IMG/VR virus record: IMGVR_UViG_3300035137_000060
Span: 1-34,008 of that record
Source: a virus
Length of the DNA stretch: 34,008 bases
Reading direction: 5' to 3' (one strand)
Of the stretch, positions 1-31,124 are shown piece after piece; position 1 is the stretch's first letter; the number at the start of each line of letters is the position of its first letter. Under the pieces are notes generated by a model, which worked only from the letters and a program-made list of their open reading frames with translations, ran no database searches and was not told where the DNA came from. The translations under genes were made by a program, and so were the position numbers.

Positions 1-870
1 AATTAGCCCAACTTAACTCAGCGCCCCTTAAATTAGCCCAACTTAACTCAGCGCCCCTTAAATCAGCTTCACTTAAATTAGCTTCTCTTAGATTAGCCTC
101 CCTTAAATCAGCGCCAAATAAATTAGCCTCTTTTAAATCAGCGCCACTTAAATCAGCATCTCTTAAATCAGCGCCACTTAAATTAGCGCCACTTAAATCA
201 GCACAACTTAAATTAGCCCATCTTAAATAAGCATCTCTTAAATCAGCATCTCTTAAATCAGCCTCTCTTAAATCAGCCTCTCTTAAATCAGTTCCACTTA
301 AATCAGCTCCCTTTAAATAAGCACAGCTTAAATTAGCGCGCATTAAATCAGCTTCATTTAAATCAGCATTACTTAAATCAGCGCACTTTAAATCAGCATT
401 ACTTAAATCAGCGCACTTTAAATCAGCATTACTTAAATCAGCGCCTTCTAAATCAGCCCCCTTTAAATCAGCCTCTCTTAAATCAGTTCCACTTAAATCA
501 GCTTCCTTTAAATCAGCCTCTCTTAAATCAGTTCCACTTAAATCAGCGCCACTTAAATCAGCGCCACTTAAATCAGCGCGCATTAAATTAGCTCCTCTTA
601 AATTAGCTTCTCTTAGATTAGTCCCCCTTAAATTAGCGCACACTAAATTAGCGCCACTTAAATCAGCGCCACTTAAATCAGCGCCACTTAAATCAGCGCG
701 CATTAAATTAGCTCCTCTTAAATTAGCTTCTCTTAAATTAGCTTCTCTTAGATTAGTTCCCCTTAAATTAGCGCACACTAAATTAGCGCCACTTAAATCA
801 ATTCCAGTTAAATTAGCGCCACTTAAATCAGCTCCCTTTAAATCAGCTCCCTTTAAATCAGCACCACTTA
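1..870 (-). repeat. 15-bp coding repeat tract with nested tandem duplications
   Basis: The DNA repeats every 15 bp in strict phase (core TTAAAT(C/T)AGC on the + strand), encoding the pentapeptides. Larger duplications are nested inside it. Positions 1-30 are repeated at 31-60. A 30-bp unit at about 363-392 recurs immediately downstream and then partly again. Positions 541-600 are identical to 661-720, and the following sequence also matches after a 15-bp indel. All length changes are multiples of 15 bp, so the frame is preserved. Confidence 0.9.
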
Positions 871-943
871 AATCCAACTTTCGCCAATCTTTATCATCGT
901 TTTTTAACTTCGCATCGATTTCTGCTTGTGTTAGTTTTTTCAT
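1..943 (-). CDS. Pentapeptide-repeat protein, C-terminus cut by window edge
   Basis: Read leftward from ATG at 943 this is an uninterrupted frame of 314 codons that leaves the window at position 1. After about 22 charged N-terminal residues (MKKLTQAEID..., then KDWRK) the protein is nothing but A(D/N)LxX pentapeptides, such as LSGAD, LREAN and LMRAD, about 58 of them in perfect 15-nt phase. Such repeats are known to form a right-handed quadrilateral beta-helix, here about 14 coils or more. Some family members mimic DNA and protect gyrase; many have no known role. The start is supported by AAGGAG 7 nt upstream (949-954). It overlaps the stop of the small upstream paralogue as ATGA, so translation is probably coupled. 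No signal peptide or membrane segment is visible. Function unknown; a moron or host-fitness gene is one possibility. Confidence 0.9.
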   Translation of the reverse strand, partial: MKKLTQAEIDAKLKNDDKDWRKLDLSGADLKGADLKGADLSGANLTGIDLSGANLVCANLRGTNLREANLREANLRGANLMRADLSGADLSGADLSGANLVCANLRGTNLREANLRGANLMRADLSGADLSGADLSGTDLREADLKEADLSGTDLREADLKGADLEGADLSNADLKCADLSNADLKCADLSNADLNEADLMRANLSCAYLKGADLSGTDLREADLREADLRDADLRDAYLRWANLSCADLSGANLSGADLRDADLSGADLKEANLFGADLREANLREANLSEADLRGAELSWANLRGAELSWAN

Positions 944-944
944 G
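853..944. repeat. 92-bp direct repeat, copy 1
   Basis: Identical, as read by eye, to 1029-1120 (offset 176). It covers the first codons of both pentapeptide genes up to and just past the ATG. The sequences diverge immediately upstream of the start codons, so the ribosome-binding sites are not part of the duplication. Confidence 0.9.
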
Positions 945-1119
945 CGTTATCTCCTTTTTTAACACCACTTAAATCAGCATTCCACAAATCAGCCTCTCTT
1001 AAATCAGCCTCTCTTAAATCAGCGCCACTTAAATCAGCACCACTTAAATCCAACTTTCGCCAATCTTTATCATCGTTTTTTAACTTCGCATCGATTTCTG
1101 CTTGTGTTAGTTTTTTCAT
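940..1119 (-). CDS. Short pentapeptide-repeat protein, truncated paralogue
   Basis: A 59-residue protein whose first 30 or so residues are identical to the larger neighbour (MKKLTQAEIDAKLKNDD, then KDWRKLDLSGAD). Only about six or seven pentapeptides follow (LSGAD, LREAD twice, LWNAD, LSGV), then KKGDNA and TGA. The stop at 942-940 overlaps the ATG of the next gene as ATGA. GGAG lies 8 nt before the ATG. It is first behind the promoter at 1171-1198. The 92-bp perfect DNA repeat with the next gene shows recent duplication. It may act as a leader cistron for translational coupling, cap or regulate the larger beta-helix, or simply be a deletion product; the sequence does not decide. Confidence 0.8.
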   Translation of the reverse strand: MKKLTQAEIDAKLKNDDKDWRKLDLSGADLSGADLREADLREADLWNADLSGVKKGDNA

Positions 1120-1120
1120 G
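1029..1120. repeat. 92-bp direct repeat, copy 2
   Basis: Second copy of the repeat at 853-944. Homologous recombination between the two would delete exactly 176 bp and leave a single pentapeptide gene under the upstream ribosome-binding site. Confidence 0.9.
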
Positions 1121-1142
1121 ATTTGTACTCCTTTTTTAATCA

Positions 1143-1162
1143 GCTCATAATTATTTATGAGC
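1143..1162 (-). promoter_or_regulatory. Perfect 8-bp palindrome at the predicted +1 of the pentapeptide transcript
   Basis: GCTCATAA and TTATGAGC arms around a 4-nt centre. It begins directly downstream of the predicted transcription start (about 1164) of the leftward promoter and ends before the ribosome-binding site at about 1127-1130. It could be a repressor operator in DNA or a 5'-end stabilising hairpin in RNA. Three other TCTTGACA promoters in the window also lead into inverted repeats. Confidence 0.55.
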
Positions 1163-1170
1163 TTAATTAC

Positions 1171-1968: not shown

Positions 1969-2961
1969 TTAATTTTCTCCTGCTATTTTTTTTAAATTAG
2001 CAACAAACTGTTGTTGATTAGTTAATTTTTTTTGTTGTGATTGTTGTTGCGTTAAATCAATTTCATCAAGCCAGCATTTTTGATTTAGCCATGTCGACGG
2101 ATGTTTAATATATTTTTTATCAATATTCATAAAAATAATTTCTTGTTTATAATTTTCTACTCCAATTAAAATTTTATCGAGTAGATCATTGTCAGGATTT
2201 ATTTGAGCAAATGCTTTTAGCGCTCCCTCTTTTGATTTGTGCAAAGGATACACAGCATAAAATTTATCAAATTTTGCAATAAATTCGCTGTTGTTTTTTA
2301 AAACAGTAAAAGAAGCGCGTACACGCGCGTTTTTACTCTCTTTAAAATTTTTATCTTGATTATTTACATTTGAGTTATGTTTAAAACTTAGATCTGTATT
2401 ATAACCATAACCATTACCGCAGTGCTTTGGCACTGCTTGTGCACTGCTTGAGCACTGCTCAGGCACTGCTTGTGCACTGCTTGAGCACTGCTCAGGCGCT
2501 GCTTGTGCACTGCTTGAGCACTGCTCAGGCGCTGCTTGTGCACTGCTTGAGCACTGCTCAGGCACTGCTTGTGCACTGCTTGAGCACTGCTCATGAATAT
2601 TTTCGATTTTTTCCCATTTATTCAATGGCTTATTCCCGTCTTCATCTGGAAATTTATAAAATGGACGTGCTATACTTTGATGATGCCAGCCAGAAATTTT
2701 TAAATATTTTTTATCATTAACAGTATATATTTTGATCAAATTGTTTTTTTCAAGCTCATTCAGCAATTGTTCAATTTCTGATTCAGTATCAGAATCAGCT
2801 GGAAAAATTTTTGCTTTAATGCATCTAAACGAGTACTGATGTATTCCATTATCGTCACAAAAATTCCATAATCCAATGAATAATAAACGTGCATTTTTTG
2901 AACAATTCATCACTTGTTCAGACGCCCAAAATTCTGGTTTTATTGATCTTTTTTTAGCCAT
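1969..2961 (-). CDS. O/DnaT-like phage replication initiator with internal 11-residue repeats
   Basis: 330 residues from the preferred ATG at 2961. An ATG nine bases upstream also exists, but AAGGA is spaced about 8 nt from the inner ATG and overlaps the outer one. The N-terminal half (SIKPEFWASEQV..., ARLLFIGLWNFCDDNG, then a winged-helix-like stretch ending YLKISGWHHQ) matches phage replisome-organiser proteins. The C-terminal half (FDKFYAVYPLHKSKEGALKA..., HPSTWLNQKCW) matches the DnaT/O C-terminal domain that contacts helicase or loader. Between them lie five 11-residue repeats of the EQCSSSAQAVP type. In lambdoid phages the origin lies inside the O gene, so the repeat block is an origin candidate. 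Transcription is leftward, divergent from the Cro-like gene. Confidence 0.78.
   Translation of the reverse strand: MAKKRSIKPEFWASEQVMNCSKNARLLFIGLWNFCDDNGIHQYSFRCIKAKIFPADSDTESEIEQLLNELEKNNLIKIYTVNDKKYLKISGWHHQSIARPFYKFPDEDGNKPLNKWEKIENIHEQCSSSAQAVPEQCSSSAQAAPEQCSSSAQAAPEQCSSSAQAVPEQCSSSAQAVPKHCGNGYGYNTDLSFKHNSNVNNQDKNFKESKNARVRASFTVLKNNSEFIAKFDKFYAVYPLHKSKEGALKAFAQINPDNDLLDKILIGVENYKQEIIFMNIDKKYIKHPSTWLNQKCWLDEIDLTQQQSQQKKLTNQQQFVANLKKIAGEN
2428..2592 (-). repeat. Five 33-bp tandem repeats inside the replication initiator gene
   Basis: Five near-identical 33-bp units, each encoding EQCSSSAQA(V/A)P, with GCACTGCT recurring two or three times per unit. GAGCACTGCTC in each unit is palindromic. 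The GC content is far above the surroundings. Position between the two domains of an O-like gene resembles the iteron block of lambda ori, but the units could also be a simple expandable linker. Confidence 0.85.
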
Positions 2962-2982
2962 ATTTGTCATCCTTATTTTTTG

Positions 2983-3021
2983 TTGAAAAAAAAATATTAA
3001 AGCAGTATACTGTATTATACT
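2983..3021. promoter_or_regulatory. Overlapping divergent promoters with operator
   Basis: Rightward: TTGAAA (2983-2988), 17-bp spacer, TATACT (3006-3011), leading to the Cro-like gene. Leftward: TATAAT (minus strand of 3014-3019), leading to the replication genes; no good -35 is seen for it. The operator-like palindrome CAGTATACTG (3003-3012) covers both -10 regions, so one bound repressor could silence both directions. Confidence 0.55.
3003..3017 (+). promoter_or_regulatory. Operator-like site 1 (CAGTATACTGTATTA)
   Basis: A perfect 10-bp palindrome CAGTATACTG followed by TATTA. The same 15-nt pattern with a single change recurs at 3438-3452. Both copies sit in promoters on either side of the Cro-like gene, the arrangement expected of an autoregulating phage repressor. 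Confidence 0.6.
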
Positions 3022-3149: not shown

Positions 3150-3443
3150 ATGAAAAAACAATTTAAGCAATTAAAACAACATGCTGAATTATTGAAAGCG
3201 ATTAAACTTGCAGGGACTGCAAAAAAATTAGCACAATTAATAAGCAAGTATATTCATTGCAACGCATCAAATATTCAGTTCTGGCGTTATAAAGATATAA
3301 AAAAAAATGATGATTTGTTGCCAATCAATGTTTCACAAATCGTCGAGAAAATCTTTAATTATCAAATTATTGCTTTAAATATCTGTCCGTCAATAAAAAA
3401 AATATCAGAAAATTATAAAAAATCTCTTGACAAAAAACAGTAA
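3150..3443 (+). CDS. Cro/YdaS-like DNA-binding regulator
   Basis: 97 residues, basic. The stretch HAELLKAIKLAGTAKKLAQL, then ASNIQFWRYKD and LPINVSQIVEKI, fits the Cro/YdaS helix-turn-helix pattern (LxxAI...AGxxxxLAxxLGVs...vspWr...ip...c..IE). This family usually acts as Cro-type or antitoxin-type transcription repressor. Its place between two copies of an operator-like palindrome, divergent from the replication genes, supports autoregulation. The second operator overlaps its own stop codon (3441-3443). A short AGG precedes the ATG by about 8 nt. The C-terminal 20 residues are Lys-rich and not recognised. Confidence 0.65.
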   Translation: MKKQFKQLKQHAELLKAIKLAGTAKKLAQLISKYIHCNASNIQFWRYKDIKKNDDLLPINVSQIVEKIFNYQIIALNICPSIKKISENYKKSLDKKQ

Positions 3444-3456
3444 ACTGTATTAGTAT
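3427..3456 (+). promoter_or_regulatory. Early rightward promoter with built-in operator
   Basis: TTGACA (3427-3432), 18-bp spacer, TAGTAT (3451-3456). The spacer holds ACAGTAAACTGT (3437-3448), an inverted repeat matching the operator-like site at 3003. The octamer TCTTGACA (3425-3432) recurs at the other early promoters. The predicted start at about 3463 coincides with the first base of the leader structure. Confidence 0.6.
3438..3452 (+). promoter_or_regulatory. Operator-like site 2 (CAGTAAACTGTATTA)
   Basis: Differs from site 1 (3003-3017) at one of 15 positions. It lies between the -35 and -10 of the early promoter and overlaps the stop codon of the Cro-like gene. Confidence 0.6.
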
Positions 3457-3462
3457 TGTTTT

Positions 3463-3540
3463 ACCGTCGAGTTTTGAGCTGATTATAACAATAATCAACA
3501 TAACAAAAATTTAATTTTGTTAGTATCAAAATTTGACGGT
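3463..3540 (+). ncRNA. Three-way-junction 5' leader, riboswitch-like shape, unassigned
   Basis: Outer stem of 15 pairs: ACCGTCGAGTTTTGA (3463-3477) with TCAAAATTTGACGGT (3526-3540). Two of the pairs are G-U, so the pairing holds in RNA better than in DNA. Inside are two further hairpins: TGATTAT/ATAATCA (3480-3486 with 3491-3497, 4-nt loop) and TAACAAAA/TTTTGTTA (3501-3508 with 3515-3522, 6-nt loop). The structure starts at the predicted +1 and ends 25 nt before the AAGGAGG of the next gene. It matches no riboswitch class I can name. It could be a protein-binding leader, an mRNA stabiliser, or a processed small RNA. Confidence 0.55.
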
Positions 3541-3578
3541 TTTATTATGTATATGAATAAAGTATAAGGAGGTATAAC

Positions 3579-4043
3579 GTGGTACATATTAGTGTAATTA
3601 ACGCTTTAAACGATAAAGCAACAAATAAAGAGATATCTGATAAATTATTTAATAAACAAAAAAAATATAATCTATATAGACAATTAATTGATGATTATGC
3701 TTTAGCAAAAAAAAGATGGCATGATTTAGATGATGATGAAAAGTTAGCTCTAATATTAGAGCATATTGATTATAATGATAAATATTTAATATCTGCTGAA
3801 GAGATTATATTTATATTTTCTGCTGATGAGATAAAAAATATATTAAAACCAACTTCGACAAATTTACATGCATTTTTTAAAGCTAGATTTGTTGAATCTT
3901 TAATTGATAAATATATGTTGCAAATCAGTGATGATATTAACGATGCTATACAATTAAAAGTAGATCCGCATGCTTATGACAGGGATATACAAGAACATAT
4001 TGATGCGGATAATAAAGAAAGAAGCTTTAGCTTCAAAATTTAA
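3579..4043 (+). CDS. Unrecognised early protein with GTG start
   Basis: 154 residues starting at GTG, fixed by a full AAGGAGG (3566-3572) 6 nt upstream, the best ribosome-binding site nearby. Charged and predicted mostly helical, with an acidic stretch RWHDLDDDEKLALILEHIDY and no transmembrane segment, cysteine cluster or enzymatic motif. It is the first gene after the structured leader at 3463-3540 and thus the likely immediate target of whatever that leader senses or binds. First-position early genes in phages are often host-takeover or anti-defence proteins, but nothing here shows that directly. Confidence 0.7.
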   Translation: MVHISVINALNDKATNKEISDKLFNKQKKYNLYRQLIDDYALAKKRWHDLDDDEKLALILEHIDYNDKYLISAEEIIFIFSADEIKNILKPTSTNLHAFFKARFVESLIDKYMLQISDDINDAIQLKVDPHAYDRDIQEHIDADNKERSFSFKI

Positions 4044-5935: not shown

Positions 5936-6151
5936 ATGCTAATTAAAACACAAAAAGCCAAAGAAGTTTTTTTAATTGGTAAACATGGTGAAATAAAAAT
6001 AACATTATTAGAATTATCGAAAAATAAAATTAGAATTGGTATAGATGCACCTAGCGATATGCCTATTTTAAAATATTATATTGCAGATATTTGCGATAAT
6101 AATAGTTATAATAATAAAAACAATAAAAATAAAAAAGCAAAAATATCTTGA
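5936..6151 (+). CDS. Divergent CsrA-like RNA-binding protein, paralogue 1
   Basis: 71 residues. The register matches CsrA throughout: MLI-x-T at the start, E10 and IG at 14-15, ITLL, then the hallmark IRIGIDAP (32-39), followed by a short helix. The CsrA RNA-binding residues are altered: the Arg-Arg after MLILT is Gln-Lys, and the VHREEI motif is replaced by PILKYYI. The tail is Asn/Lys-rich. CsrA/RsmA dimers bind GGA in mRNA leaders and repress translation. Two GGA triplets (5925-5927 and 5933-5935) frame its own ribosome-binding site, the second abutting the ATG, so autoregulation is plausible. It sits between ATPase and YqaJ. Either RNA specificity has changed or it acts by forming heterodimers. 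Confidence 0.72.
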   Translation: MLIKTQKAKEVFLIGKHGEIKITLLELSKNKIRIGIDAPSDMPILKYYIADICDNNSYNNKNNKNKKAKIS

Positions 6152-6175
6152 CAATGTTTATATATAATGTATAAT
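6148..6175 (+). promoter_or_regulatory. Early promoter upstream of the structured leader at 6182
   Basis: TTGACA (6148-6153), 16-bp spacer, TATAAT (6170-6175): two perfect hexamers, the best promoter in the window. A long A-tract precedes it. The -35 overlaps the end of the CsrA-like gene. The 22 bp ending at the -35 (6132-6153) occur again, inverted, inside the leader at 7916-7937. Confidence 0.8.
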
Positions 6176-6181
6176 TATGTG

Positions 6182-6255
6182 TGTGCGAGTTAAATATTTT
6201 TTTTTTAACAACTGCTGGTTAAAAAAACCATCCTTTTTTAGTATTTGCTCGCACA
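6182..6255 (+). ncRNA. Structured 5' leader with long outer stem and inner hairpin
   Basis: Starts at the predicted +1. Outer stem TGTGCGAG (6182-6189) with CTCGCACA (6248-6255) extends inward, through a U-G pair and one bulged U, by about seven more pairs with 6240-6247. Inside is TTTTTTAAC (6201-6209) with GTTAAAAAA (6218-6226), loop AACTGCTG. The AAAGGA ribosome-binding site follows at about 6270. It could regulate the coiled-coil and YqaJ genes or be an independent small RNA. An in-frame upstream reading through it is low-complexity and is not taken as coding. Confidence 0.55.
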
Positions 6256-6284
6256 TTTTTTGTATTAGTAAAAGGACAATTATT

Positions 6285-6452
6285 ATGAGTTTAGATGATG
6301 ATTTTATAGGTACACTTATGCGCGCATATAAAAAAGAGTACAAAATTTTAGAAAATGATATTAACAATTTAAGAGCTGTTATTAAACAACTAATGGAAGA
6401 TGTTAATGATTTACAAAATGAGGTTACATTTTTAAATGAAAGATTATCTTAG
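6285..6452 (+). CDS. Small coiled-coil protein
   Basis: 55 residues from the ATG that follows AAAAGGA by about 10 nt. Acidic start (MSLDDDF), then a continuous heptad-like helix, YKILENDINNLRAVIKQLME followed by DVNDLQNEVTFLNERLS. Likely a homo- or hetero-oligomeric coiled coil. It lies 16 bp upstream of the YqaJ exonuclease and behind the structured leader, so it may be a partner or regulator of the nuclease. No family recognised. Confidence 0.65.
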   Translation: MSLDDDFIGTLMRAYKKEYKILENDINNLRAVIKQLMEDVNDLQNEVTFLNERLS

Positions 6453-6468
6453 TATAAGGAAAAATTAA

Positions 6469-7446
6469 ATGGCATTAACTGAACAACAACTTAAAGATAG
6501 AAAAAATTATATTGGTGGATCAGATATAAGCGCGATTTTTGGATATAACAAATGGAAAACAGCTCTTGATATTTACAATGAAAAAACATCAGATGAAATA
6601 AAACAAAACGGAAATACAATTGATAATAATTATATTGATTGGGGTAATGAAGATGAACCTATCTTACTATCAAAATTTGAGCGCGAAATCTGCTTAAAAG
6701 TAAAACAAAATGTACCAATACGATATCACGATAAATATGATTTTCTTGCTGCAAATGTCGATGGAATTGCGTTTGATCTTGATGAAATCTATATATTAGA
6801 AGCAAAATCAATATGCAGAACACATGACGAGTGGGGCGATCCTGTTAATGATATCAATTATAATTTGATCAGCAATAATCAATTAAAACAAAAACGAGGA
6901 CAAATTCCTGCACAATATTTATTTCAAGTTGCTTATTATTGCGCAATTTATAATTCAACAAAAGCATATATTTTAGTGAGATTTGGTAATCATTTGCCGA
7001 TGTGTGTTTATCAATATAATCGTGATCATGATTTTGAAAATCATATAATTGAAAATGCAAAAAATTTCTGGGTTAATCATATACAAAAAAAGATTCCTCC
7101 TAAGCCGCAAACTTATGATGATGTAAAAGAACTTTACAAAAATGCAATAAAACAAAAAGAAATCATTATAAATAATGATATCATTGATAAATATATAGAA
7201 ATGACTGAATTACAAAAACAATATAATGATTTAGAGAGAAAAATAAAAAAATATAAAAAAGAATTGTTGTTAAACATTGAAGATGCTGAAATCATTAATA
7301 ATCTTGCGCATCAAACAATATTTACGTGTCCAACAATTACAAGCGAAAGAATTGATAATAATAAATTAAAAGAAAAATATCCTGATGTTGCAAGAGATTG
7401 TAGTTATACAATAAAATATAGACGATTTTATAATAAACTGAAATAG
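6469..7446 (+). CDS. YqaJ-type (lambda-exonuclease fold) recombination nuclease
   Basis: 325 residues. The N-terminal IGGSDISAIFGYNKWKTALD is the YqaJ signature, followed by DWGNEDEPILLSKFE (58-72). The PD-(D/E)xK core is ANVDGI (Asp98) and YILEAKS (Glu111, Lys113), then the FQVAYYCAIYNSTKAYILVR strand-helix. These enzymes resect double-strand ends 5'-3' to leave 3' tails for a RecT annealase, encoded here at 8522. The C-terminal 100 residues are helical, with coiled-coil character. All expected catalytic residues are visible. Confidence 0.88.
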   Translation: MALTEQQLKDRKNYIGGSDISAIFGYNKWKTALDIYNEKTSDEIKQNGNTIDNNYIDWGNEDEPILLSKFEREICLKVKQNVPIRYHDKYDFLAANVDGIAFDLDEIYILEAKSICRTHDEWGDPVNDINYNLISNNQLKQKRGQIPAQYLFQVAYYCAIYNSTKAYILVRFGNHLPMCVYQYNRDHDFENHIIENAKNFWVNHIQKKIPPKPQTYDDVKELYKNAIKQKEIIINNDIIDKYIEMTELQKQYNDLERKIKKYKKELLLNIEDAEIINNLAHQTIFTCPTITSERIDNNKLKEKYPDVARDCSYTIKYRRFYNKLK

Positions 7447-27253: not shown

Positions 27254-27425
27254 ATAATTTAAAATTGCTATTCTTTTTAAAAATTAATTATATATTATTG
27301 ATTAATTATGGCTACGTTTTATTGCTGTTAACAAGCAATGATGAATTGAAGATATGAAATTACTAGTTAAGTAATGTTTTTGCAATATGTAACGTACATT
27401 TCGTCGCCACCCACTTTTATATGCA

Positions 27426-27465
27426 ATTTTGACCATTTTCACCATATGGGAAAAATGGTCAAAAT
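27426..27465. terminator. 14-bp perfect inverted repeat between head and tail operons
   Basis: ATTTTGACCATTTT (27426-27439) and AAAATGGTCAAAAT (27452-27465) with the loop CACCATATGGGA, itself containing CCATATGG. Read leftward from the head genes it is a strong hairpin about 45 bp after the 27510 stop, consistent with a terminator though a clean U-run is lacking. An operator is the alternative. Confidence 0.5.
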
Positions 27466-27509
27466 GATAATAAAAACATCAATAATTGCTTTTGATAATA
27501 AAAAAGATA

Positions 27510-29651: not shown

Positions 29652-30272
29652 CTAAACGCATTCTCCTGCGATACTGTAAACACCCAAATCGTAAATGCGG
29701 TACATTTGATAAATAGCATTGCTAGTAGCAGGTAATAATTTCATTATCGATGCTTGATCACAATCACCTTTGTTTTCGTAGACTGCTGCTAAGTGGTTGA
29801 GCAAAGCAAGTCTTATGTCATCAGGCACATCAGTTTCTGATGTGCCATAGCCTGCCGTAAACTCAATTTTAATTGCTTGTAATTGTTCATCAATATCTAT
29901 CGGATAATGTTGATCATTTTTTAAAACAATTTTAGAAAAATCAACTTCATCAGTTACATAATATAGTGTTGATGTAACTGTTGTAAATAAACTGTCAACT
30001 AAATATTCATATAAATCAAGTGATTGCAATTTTGATCGTCTTAATTTTATACAACACTCAAAAAAATCTCGATACGTTCTGAAACCTGTATTAATAAATA
30101 TTCTACGCGTATAATCTTCACCAAATTTTGTTGCAGCTTTGATCAAAAATGTTAAGTATGTATCTTGTGATGTATCAGTTGGGTCAAGCTTTAAATGTTC
30201 TTTAACTTCTGCAAGAGTGACGGGAGTCGTTGCAGGCGGTGTAATTATATGATAACTATATGCTCTTTCCAT
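29652..30272 (-). CDS. Head-tail connector (gp6-like)
   Basis: 206 residues. ITPPATTPVTLAEVKEHLKL, DTYLTFLIKAATKFGEDYTR, the DLYEYLVD/YYVTDEVDF strands and IKIEFTAGYGTSETDVPDDI form the phage connector/QLRG-type pattern (A...L...D...AxGY...VP). C-terminal helix LALLNHLAAVYENKGD. Makes the ring between portal and stopper. Confidence 0.82.
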   Translation of the reverse strand: MERAYSYHIITPPATTPVTLAEVKEHLKLDPTDTSQDTYLTFLIKAATKFGEDYTRRIFINTGFRTYRDFFECCIKLRRSKLQSLDLYEYLVDSLFTTVTSTLYYVTDEVDFSKIVLKNDQHYPIDIDEQLQAIKIEFTAGYGTSETDVPDDIRLALLNHLAAVYENKGDCDQASIMKLLPATSNAIYQMYRIYDLGVYSIAGECV

Positions 30273-30710: not shown

Positions 30711-31124
30711 TTATGCAGCAGGTTTTAACTCAGGCATTTTACTAGTTGTTGCAGTGATTGTTGCACCAGTTGTTACACCGGTTGATACAATACTAATCTG
30801 CACGTAGCGTTTTGTGTTACCAATGCCAAGAGTTGTCATTGAACTACCGACAGTTGTTGCAGCACTTAATGCAGCAGCAGCTTCTGTGCCGATCAAATTT
30901 GTGTCAGGAACTTGAGTTGCGCCAGCCATTCCAGAATTATCAGATTCTGTGATTAGCGGCGTATAAGTTCCGTCTGTGTATGCTAGTGCTGCAAAACTAA
31001 ACATAACACCACTATCATAATCAGCAGTATCTATAATTTGACCCGTTGTCGTAGTATTAGTACTAATTGCTGCGTAAAAACCTAGGTCACTAGCAACATT
31101 AGATCTCATATCTCGTTGTGGCAT
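30711..31124 (-). CDS. Capsid-associated protein, decoration candidate
   Basis: 137 residues. MRSNVASDLGFYAAISTNTT, DYDSGVMFSFAALAYTDGTY and TPLITESDN, then KRYVQISIVSTGVTTGATIT: a small beta-sandwich pattern common in genes downstream of major capsid proteins. AGGAGG precedes the ATG. Likely bound to the capsid surface; not proven. Confidence 0.62.
   Translation of the reverse strand: MPQRDMRSNVASDLGFYAAISTNTTTTGQIIDTADYDSGVMFSFAALAYTDGTYTPLITESDNSGMAGATQVPDTNLIGTEAAAALSAATTVGSSMTTLGIGNTKRYVQISIVSTGVTTGATITATTSKMPELKPAA

Follow-up and report, generated by a model that had tools for sequence, protein, structure and literature searches.

What would a highly structured RNA do at the very start of a phage early transcript? 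This question is raised by the region around position 3463 of the DNA analysed here, a stretch of 34,008 nt (hereafter, the window) from the IMG/VR virus record IMGVR_UViG_3300035137_000060. The window covers roughly two thirds of the genome of one phage: the IMG/VR contig G001 (50,270 bp) is 100% identical to it over the parts compared, and the 127-bp terminal repeat of this contig indicates a circular genome of ~50.1 kb. Our study describes a real, orphan, structured early leader at this position (leader 1), for which protection of the mRNA is the most likely role and attenuation the main rival.

Promoter and gene context of the leader

A sigma-70-type early promoter is predicted at 3427-3456 on the plus strand, with TTGACA at 3427-3432, an 18-bp spacer, TAGTAT at 3451-3456 and a predicted +1 near 3463. 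It is important to note that the window contains 10 promoter-like sites, against 12.1 expected from shuffles; since there is no excess of such sites, the transcription start of leader 1 remains a prediction, which is backed by the full TTGACA and by a palindrome located between the -35 and -10 boxes. This palindrome, ACAGTAAACTGT (3437-3448), is a likely repressor operator, and a near-identical copy (CAGTATACTGTATTA, 3003-3017; GCAGTATACTGT, 3002-3013) is found in the divergent upstream promoter region. Palindromes in both promoter regions are as expected for one shared repressor. The 97-aa ORF at 3150-3443 (+), which ends at the leader's promoter with its 3' end overlapped by the -35 box, has no family match; from its position, it is possibly the small DNA-binding regulator of both palindromes.

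To the left of this ORF lies a divergent RepA-like gene (1969-2970, minus strand). To the right of the leader, a Shine-Dalgarno (SD) sequence AGGAGG and a GTG start (3566-3581, +), with the SD outside the junction pairing, open the early operon, whose order is a 154-aa ORF (3579-4043, +; no family found), small proteins, an AAA ATPase, a CsrA-like regulator, recE and recT. The structure predictions for the 97-aa and 154-aa ORFs were poor (pLDDT 46 and 50, respectively). A CsrA-like regulator, encoded here at 5936-6151, is also present in the AT-rich phage contigs L158 and L190. Inside the RepA-like gene, a tandem repeat at 2420-2594, with units GCACTGCTTG(T/A)GCACTGCTCAGG, can form very stable hairpins; it looks like a set of replication iterons in a lambda O-like placement.

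Anatomy and folding of leader 1

The sequence-only reading of this locus had proposed a three-way junction that opens at the predicted +1 (3463) of the TTGACA/TAGTAT promoter, with a 15-pair stem containing two G-U pairs and enclosing hairpins of 7 and 8 pairs. Our base-by-base check confirmed this anatomy, the promoter being a predicted one. The junction spans 78 nt of the plus strand (3463-3540), and its outer stem joins 3463-3477 to 3526-3540 in 15 of 15 pairs, two of which are wobbles (G3469-U3534 and G3471-U3532). The two enclosed hairpins, at 3480-3497 (7/7 pairs, 3480-3486/3491-3497) and 3501-3522 (8/8 pairs, 3501-3508/3515-3522), contain no mismatch and carry the loops AACA and AUUUAA, respectively. 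The minimum free energy of the 88 nt at 3463-3550 is -27.1 kcal/mol, compared with a shuffle mean of -10.1 (z -6.28), and none of 200 dinucleotide shuffles folded as low; the test against shuffled sequence of the same composition, suggested together with the original claim, came out in its favour. When the flanks are included (3455-3578), the z score is -3.55 and again none of the 200 shuffles was as low. After GC correction, leader 1 ranks first among 9,694 windows of 84 nt on both strands, a ranking from which the tandem repeat at 2.4-2.6 kb was excluded.

The opposite strand of leader 1 folds at -25.0 kcal/mol, almost equal to the plus strand, so folding energy alone cannot choose RNA over DNA. 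This near-equality, together with the ease with which inverted repeats arise in AT-rich DNA, favours the explanation that the locus is a DNA-level inverted repeat (a protein site or a cruciform) or a functionless chance structure. We consider this explanation unlikely. Against it stand the z score, the top rank among the 9,694 windows, the opening of the structure at the predicted +1, the two departures from perfect pairing, which form wobbles in the transcribed strand alone, and the presence of a second such element at the window's best promoter. According to our own estimate, two altered inverted-repeat pairs would both be plus-strand wobbles by chance in ~1/16 to 1/36 of cases; for this reason, the earlier argument that the two G-U pairs reveal selection on RNA is weak when taken alone, and it gains some support from the pairing of the second leader described below. 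Location at +1 and the two wobbles, considered together, point mildly to RNA.

Search for relatives of leader 1

The Rfam search, at gathering and relaxed thresholds, produced no match to leader 1, its best chance match being STnc230 (E 7.7), which agrees with the initial impression that no known class fits the leader. A nucleotide search of known phages with the leader region returned low-complexity matches only. In IMG/VR, relatives of the flanking ORFs came from the same phage only (G001), the relatives of RepA show a different gene order, and the relatives of RecE do not have the first operon gene in common. We also built a single-sequence covariance model of the leader (R1) and ran it against fetched phage loci totalling 2.1 Mb and against 369 genomes of gammaproteobacteria; it recovered itself and chance matches only, and its sole match in the genomes falls within trkA. 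Finally, a degenerate stem pattern applied to all of IMG/VR was found in 21 other contigs, all of them unrelated. Within the searches made, the only homologue of leader 1 is that of the same phage (G001).

A second leader and short-hairpin leaders in the same genome

Our study identified a second leader, new here, which is built like the first and located 5' of recE/recT. The best promoter in the window, with full consensus (12/12; TTGACA-16-TATAAT), lies at 6148-6175 (+), and the ~76 nt that follow (leader 2; 6181-6256, +) are paired from +1 (6181-6190/6247-6256), contain inner helices and are succeeded by the U-tract UUUUUU, with an SD some 17 nt further. This leader folds at -21.2 kcal/mol (z -4.5; 0/200 shuffles). 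The ORF after it (6286-6452, +; SD AAAAGGA) encodes a 55-aa coiled-coil-like protein, and recE comes next at 6469. Positions +6 to +11 read CGAGUU in leader 1 as well as in leader 2, and the partner of CGAG is UUUG in leader 1, which creates the two G-U pairs, and CUCG in leader 2. Such a difference of partner, one-sided and pair-preserving, is suggestive, in a comparison of two sequences only.

In addition, the genome contains three short leaders in which a common 9-pair hairpin opens 1-2 nt from +1 and precedes a purine-rich SD. One of them, AAGCTCATAAATAATTATGAGCT, is in the window (1142-1164, minus strand), after the promoter TTGACA-16-TACAAT at 1198(-), and two identical copies of its hairpin occur in the rest of the genome, at L019 4242 and 5818. 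The promoters of the leaders at 1164(-) and L019 4242 have the full TTGACA. The 10-mer GAGCTGATTA is found in this genome in leader 1 and in the three short-hairpin leaders only.

Of the 9 strong intergenic TTGAC promoters of this phage, 6 are followed by a 5'-terminal domain that reaches -7 kcal/mol or lower, compared with 23% of noncoding positions (binomial ~0.007, or ~0.02 when the repeated hairpin is counted once), and 2 by one of -20 kcal/mol or lower, compared with 0.9% of noncoding positions. This comparison is post hoc, made after the pattern had been seen, and the enrichment of 5' stems at the promoters of this phage is only moderately strong.

Structured leaders at other RecE operons and a possible put-like antitermination

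As a by-product, the search for structures at +1 in the relatives of RecE yielded a Megaera-type leader, conserved in ~25 viral contigs (alignment A5; ~30 with the related set described below) and also present on the plasmid pPCS148 of Candidatus Megaera polyxenophila. This leader opens with AUAAG at the +1 of an early promoter, some 1.1 kb upstream of the RecE homologue, and its sequence runs AUAAGGCAUAAAAAAACGCCUUAAG...CUUAAGACGUUUU...CCUUAU, then GUAAGAAUU...AAUUCUUAC. The members are found in L121-L155, L162, L163 and L177 (e.g. L152:5912-6019) and in L237:1425-1540. Rfam gave no match for this leader in the contigs of the 12 members scanned. Since the stems hardly vary, they offer little covariation (a two-sided change in 1 of 17 pairs). 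We propose the leader (alignment A5, model R2) as a candidate new RNA family. The related set comprises six contigs (L150:1421, L145:1590, L135:640, L138:2377, L140:6202 and L147:1284). A true three-way junction is present in L150, L145 and L135, its outer stem AGUAACCCA-GAA/UUC-UGGGUUAC starting from about +3 of the early promoter. The leaders of L138, L140 and L147 form the outer stem again, using altered bases. These results show structured RNAs at +1 to be a recurrent feature of RecE-operon promoters. Model R2 has no match in the window; leader 1 is like the Megaera-type leader in starting at +1 of an early promoter, but the two have no sequence similarity and are not homologues.

One RNA acting from such a position is the put RNA of phage HK022, which achieves protein-free antitermination via the zinc-binding domain of the RNA polymerase beta' subunit. 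HK022 putL is located just downstream of PL, measures ~70 nt, forms two stem-loops, pairs from base 3, requires no phage protein and includes a -10-like pause motif and a triplex (PMC9378689). If leader 1 were a put-like cis antiterminator, it would bind the elongating polymerase and resist pausing and termination along the early operon. Its size and place fit putL, both being structured RNAs of ~70-80 nt with two stem-loops at the start of an early phage transcript, and no boxA-like site was found near it. However, put lacks a long enclosing stem, whereas both hairpins of leader 1 are held inside the 15-pair closing stem; leader 1 has no sequence similarity to putL/putR or match to any family, its fold is single-copy by model R1 and, unlike putL/putR, the second leader of this phage is not similar in sequence to the first. 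We consequently regard a put-like function as improbable. The broader proposal that RecE-type early operons carry +1 structured RNAs that act on the polymerase or decide early read-through is, in our opinion, just as doubtful; leaders 1 and 2 and the Megaera-phage leader would then be unrelated solutions, providing put-like protein-free control outside lambdoid phages.

Ligand binding and attenuation as possible roles

Three-way junctions are a common ligand-binding architecture and the phage encodes a CsrA-like protein, and the sequence-only reading had compared leader 1 with a riboswitch or a protein-binding leader; in such a case, it would have a regulatory role, either similar to that of a riboswitch or in the autoregulation of an early protein. 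Our analysis gave this suggestion no support. The SD is 0.6-0.98 unpaired with or without the junction, and no alternative fold traps it; because SD and start codon are equally open in both states, a translational switch is unlikely. Moreover, GGA, the CsrA-type motif, is absent from the junction loops and occurs only in the SD. Regulation by a ligand or a bound protein is, of the explanations considered here, the one to which we give least credence.

Attenuation deserves more attention. The U-rich tail UUUAUUAU (3541-3548, +) directly follows the stem of leader 1 and is terminator-like, although weak. In both long leaders, a U-tract comes right after the 3' arm, with nT values of 3.57 in leader 1 and 4.38 in leader 2, which are reached by 3.6% and ~1.4% of noncoding positions, respectively. 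In the growing transcript of leader 1, the 5 nt that immediately precede the U-tract bring the free energy from -15.1 to -27.0 kcal/mol, and it is this late stem gain of 12 kcal/mol, together with the U-tracts, that makes partial termination a serious rival. According to this explanation, which we consider possible, the GC-rich stem base would close as the U-tract is made, some transcripts would stop near 3545 and the rest would read into the operon, so that the leader would act as a promoter-proximal, terminator-like attenuator or as the source of a short structured RNA of ~85 nt, used as a phage sRNA or an immunity-type RNA. The compactness of the RNA from +1 through the U-tract is in keeping with such a product. 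Phage leader attenuators and immunity RNAs of the P4 CI RNA and lambda oop type are compact early-region RNAs consisting of a stem and a U-rich tail; leader 1 is like them in coming from an early-region promoter and in ending with these two elements, but its U-tract is weak and a search by exact 12-mers revealed no antisense targets of note. Also unfavourable to termination is the simple terminator score of leader 1, which is negative (-8.8 to -18.6; the score is not made for branched stems), compared with 8.6 and 4.5 for other hairpins of the window and with 27.7 and 11.3 for the best two in the rest of the genome, as is the fact that the short-hairpin leaders have no U-tract. If leader 1 were an attenuator or a put-like element, it would represent, outside lambdoid phages, a switch that acts on early transcription without a protein.

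Proposed protection of the 5' end of the early mRNA

The reading that we place first, tentatively and by analogy with known stabilisers, is that leader 1 is a 5'-terminal stem that protects the early mRNA from 5'-end-dependent decay. According to the review PMC3997798, which cites Emory 1992 and Bouvet 1992, E. coli mRNA is stabilised by 5'-terminal hairpins, with RppH being impeded, and not all E. coli mRNAs are protected by a 5' hairpin. The start of transcription at 3463, the production of the RNA and its stabilising effect are what we infer in the following sequence of events. Leader 1 would be the 5' untranslated leader of the phage early operon, with base 1 already paired. In the nascent RNA, the two small hairpins would fold first, bringing the 5' and 3' arms together, and the 15-pair stem would then zip up in the direction of its GC-rich 5' base, so that 0-1 nt would remain unpaired at the 5' end. 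Such a paired 5' end would be a poor substrate for pyrophosphate removal by RppH and for 5'-end-dependent attack by RNase E; the SD and start codon downstream would stay open, and the early operon mRNA would live longer.

Two considerations led us to rate protection first. The ompA/papA stabilisers combine a paired 5' end with an open SD, and so does leader 1: as in their 5' untranslated regions, the stem of leader 1 starts 0-2 nt from the predicted 5' end of the mRNA, its GC-rich end is located at the predicted +1, and the ribosome-binding site downstream is accessible. Furthermore, a paired 5' end is the one property common to all five leaders of this phage; the leaders retain it while differing in sequence, as fits a function of the pairing itself. 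Also in favour of protection are the stability of the fold of leader 1 relative to shuffles and the excess, described above, of 5'-terminal domains at the promoters of this phage. Several observations do not favour protection. Leader 1 differs from the ompA/papA stabilisers in being a branched 78-nt junction followed by a U-tract; a simple hairpin would be enough, and the three-way junction exceeds this need. Protection also leaves the U-tracts after both long leaders unexplained, and other loci show no enrichment of 5' stems at their promoter-like sites (p 0.36). If protection is the true role, this phage builds 5'-end armour into several of its promoters. Whichever role is the true one, leaders 1 and 2, which belong to one genome, could serve as a simple matched pair in reporter assays.

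Other structured elements and ORFs

Other elements of this genome were observed during our analysis. At L019 16912 to ~16825(-), near the end of the head genes, a full-consensus promoter has a GC hairpin and TTTTTTT within the ~60 nt downstream of it; this element is likely a short phage RNA gene. In the window, a branched intergenic structure (27420-27505, minus strand; z -5.2) lies between tail genes, and strong structures are found near 29765-29880 and 30890-30980. A large cluster of pentapeptide-repeat ORFs extends over window positions 1-1120 and L019 39-2995, with the N-terminus MKKLTQAEIDEKLKNDDKDW in common, and the same start is present in a DUF4116-like ORF at L019 6706-6981.
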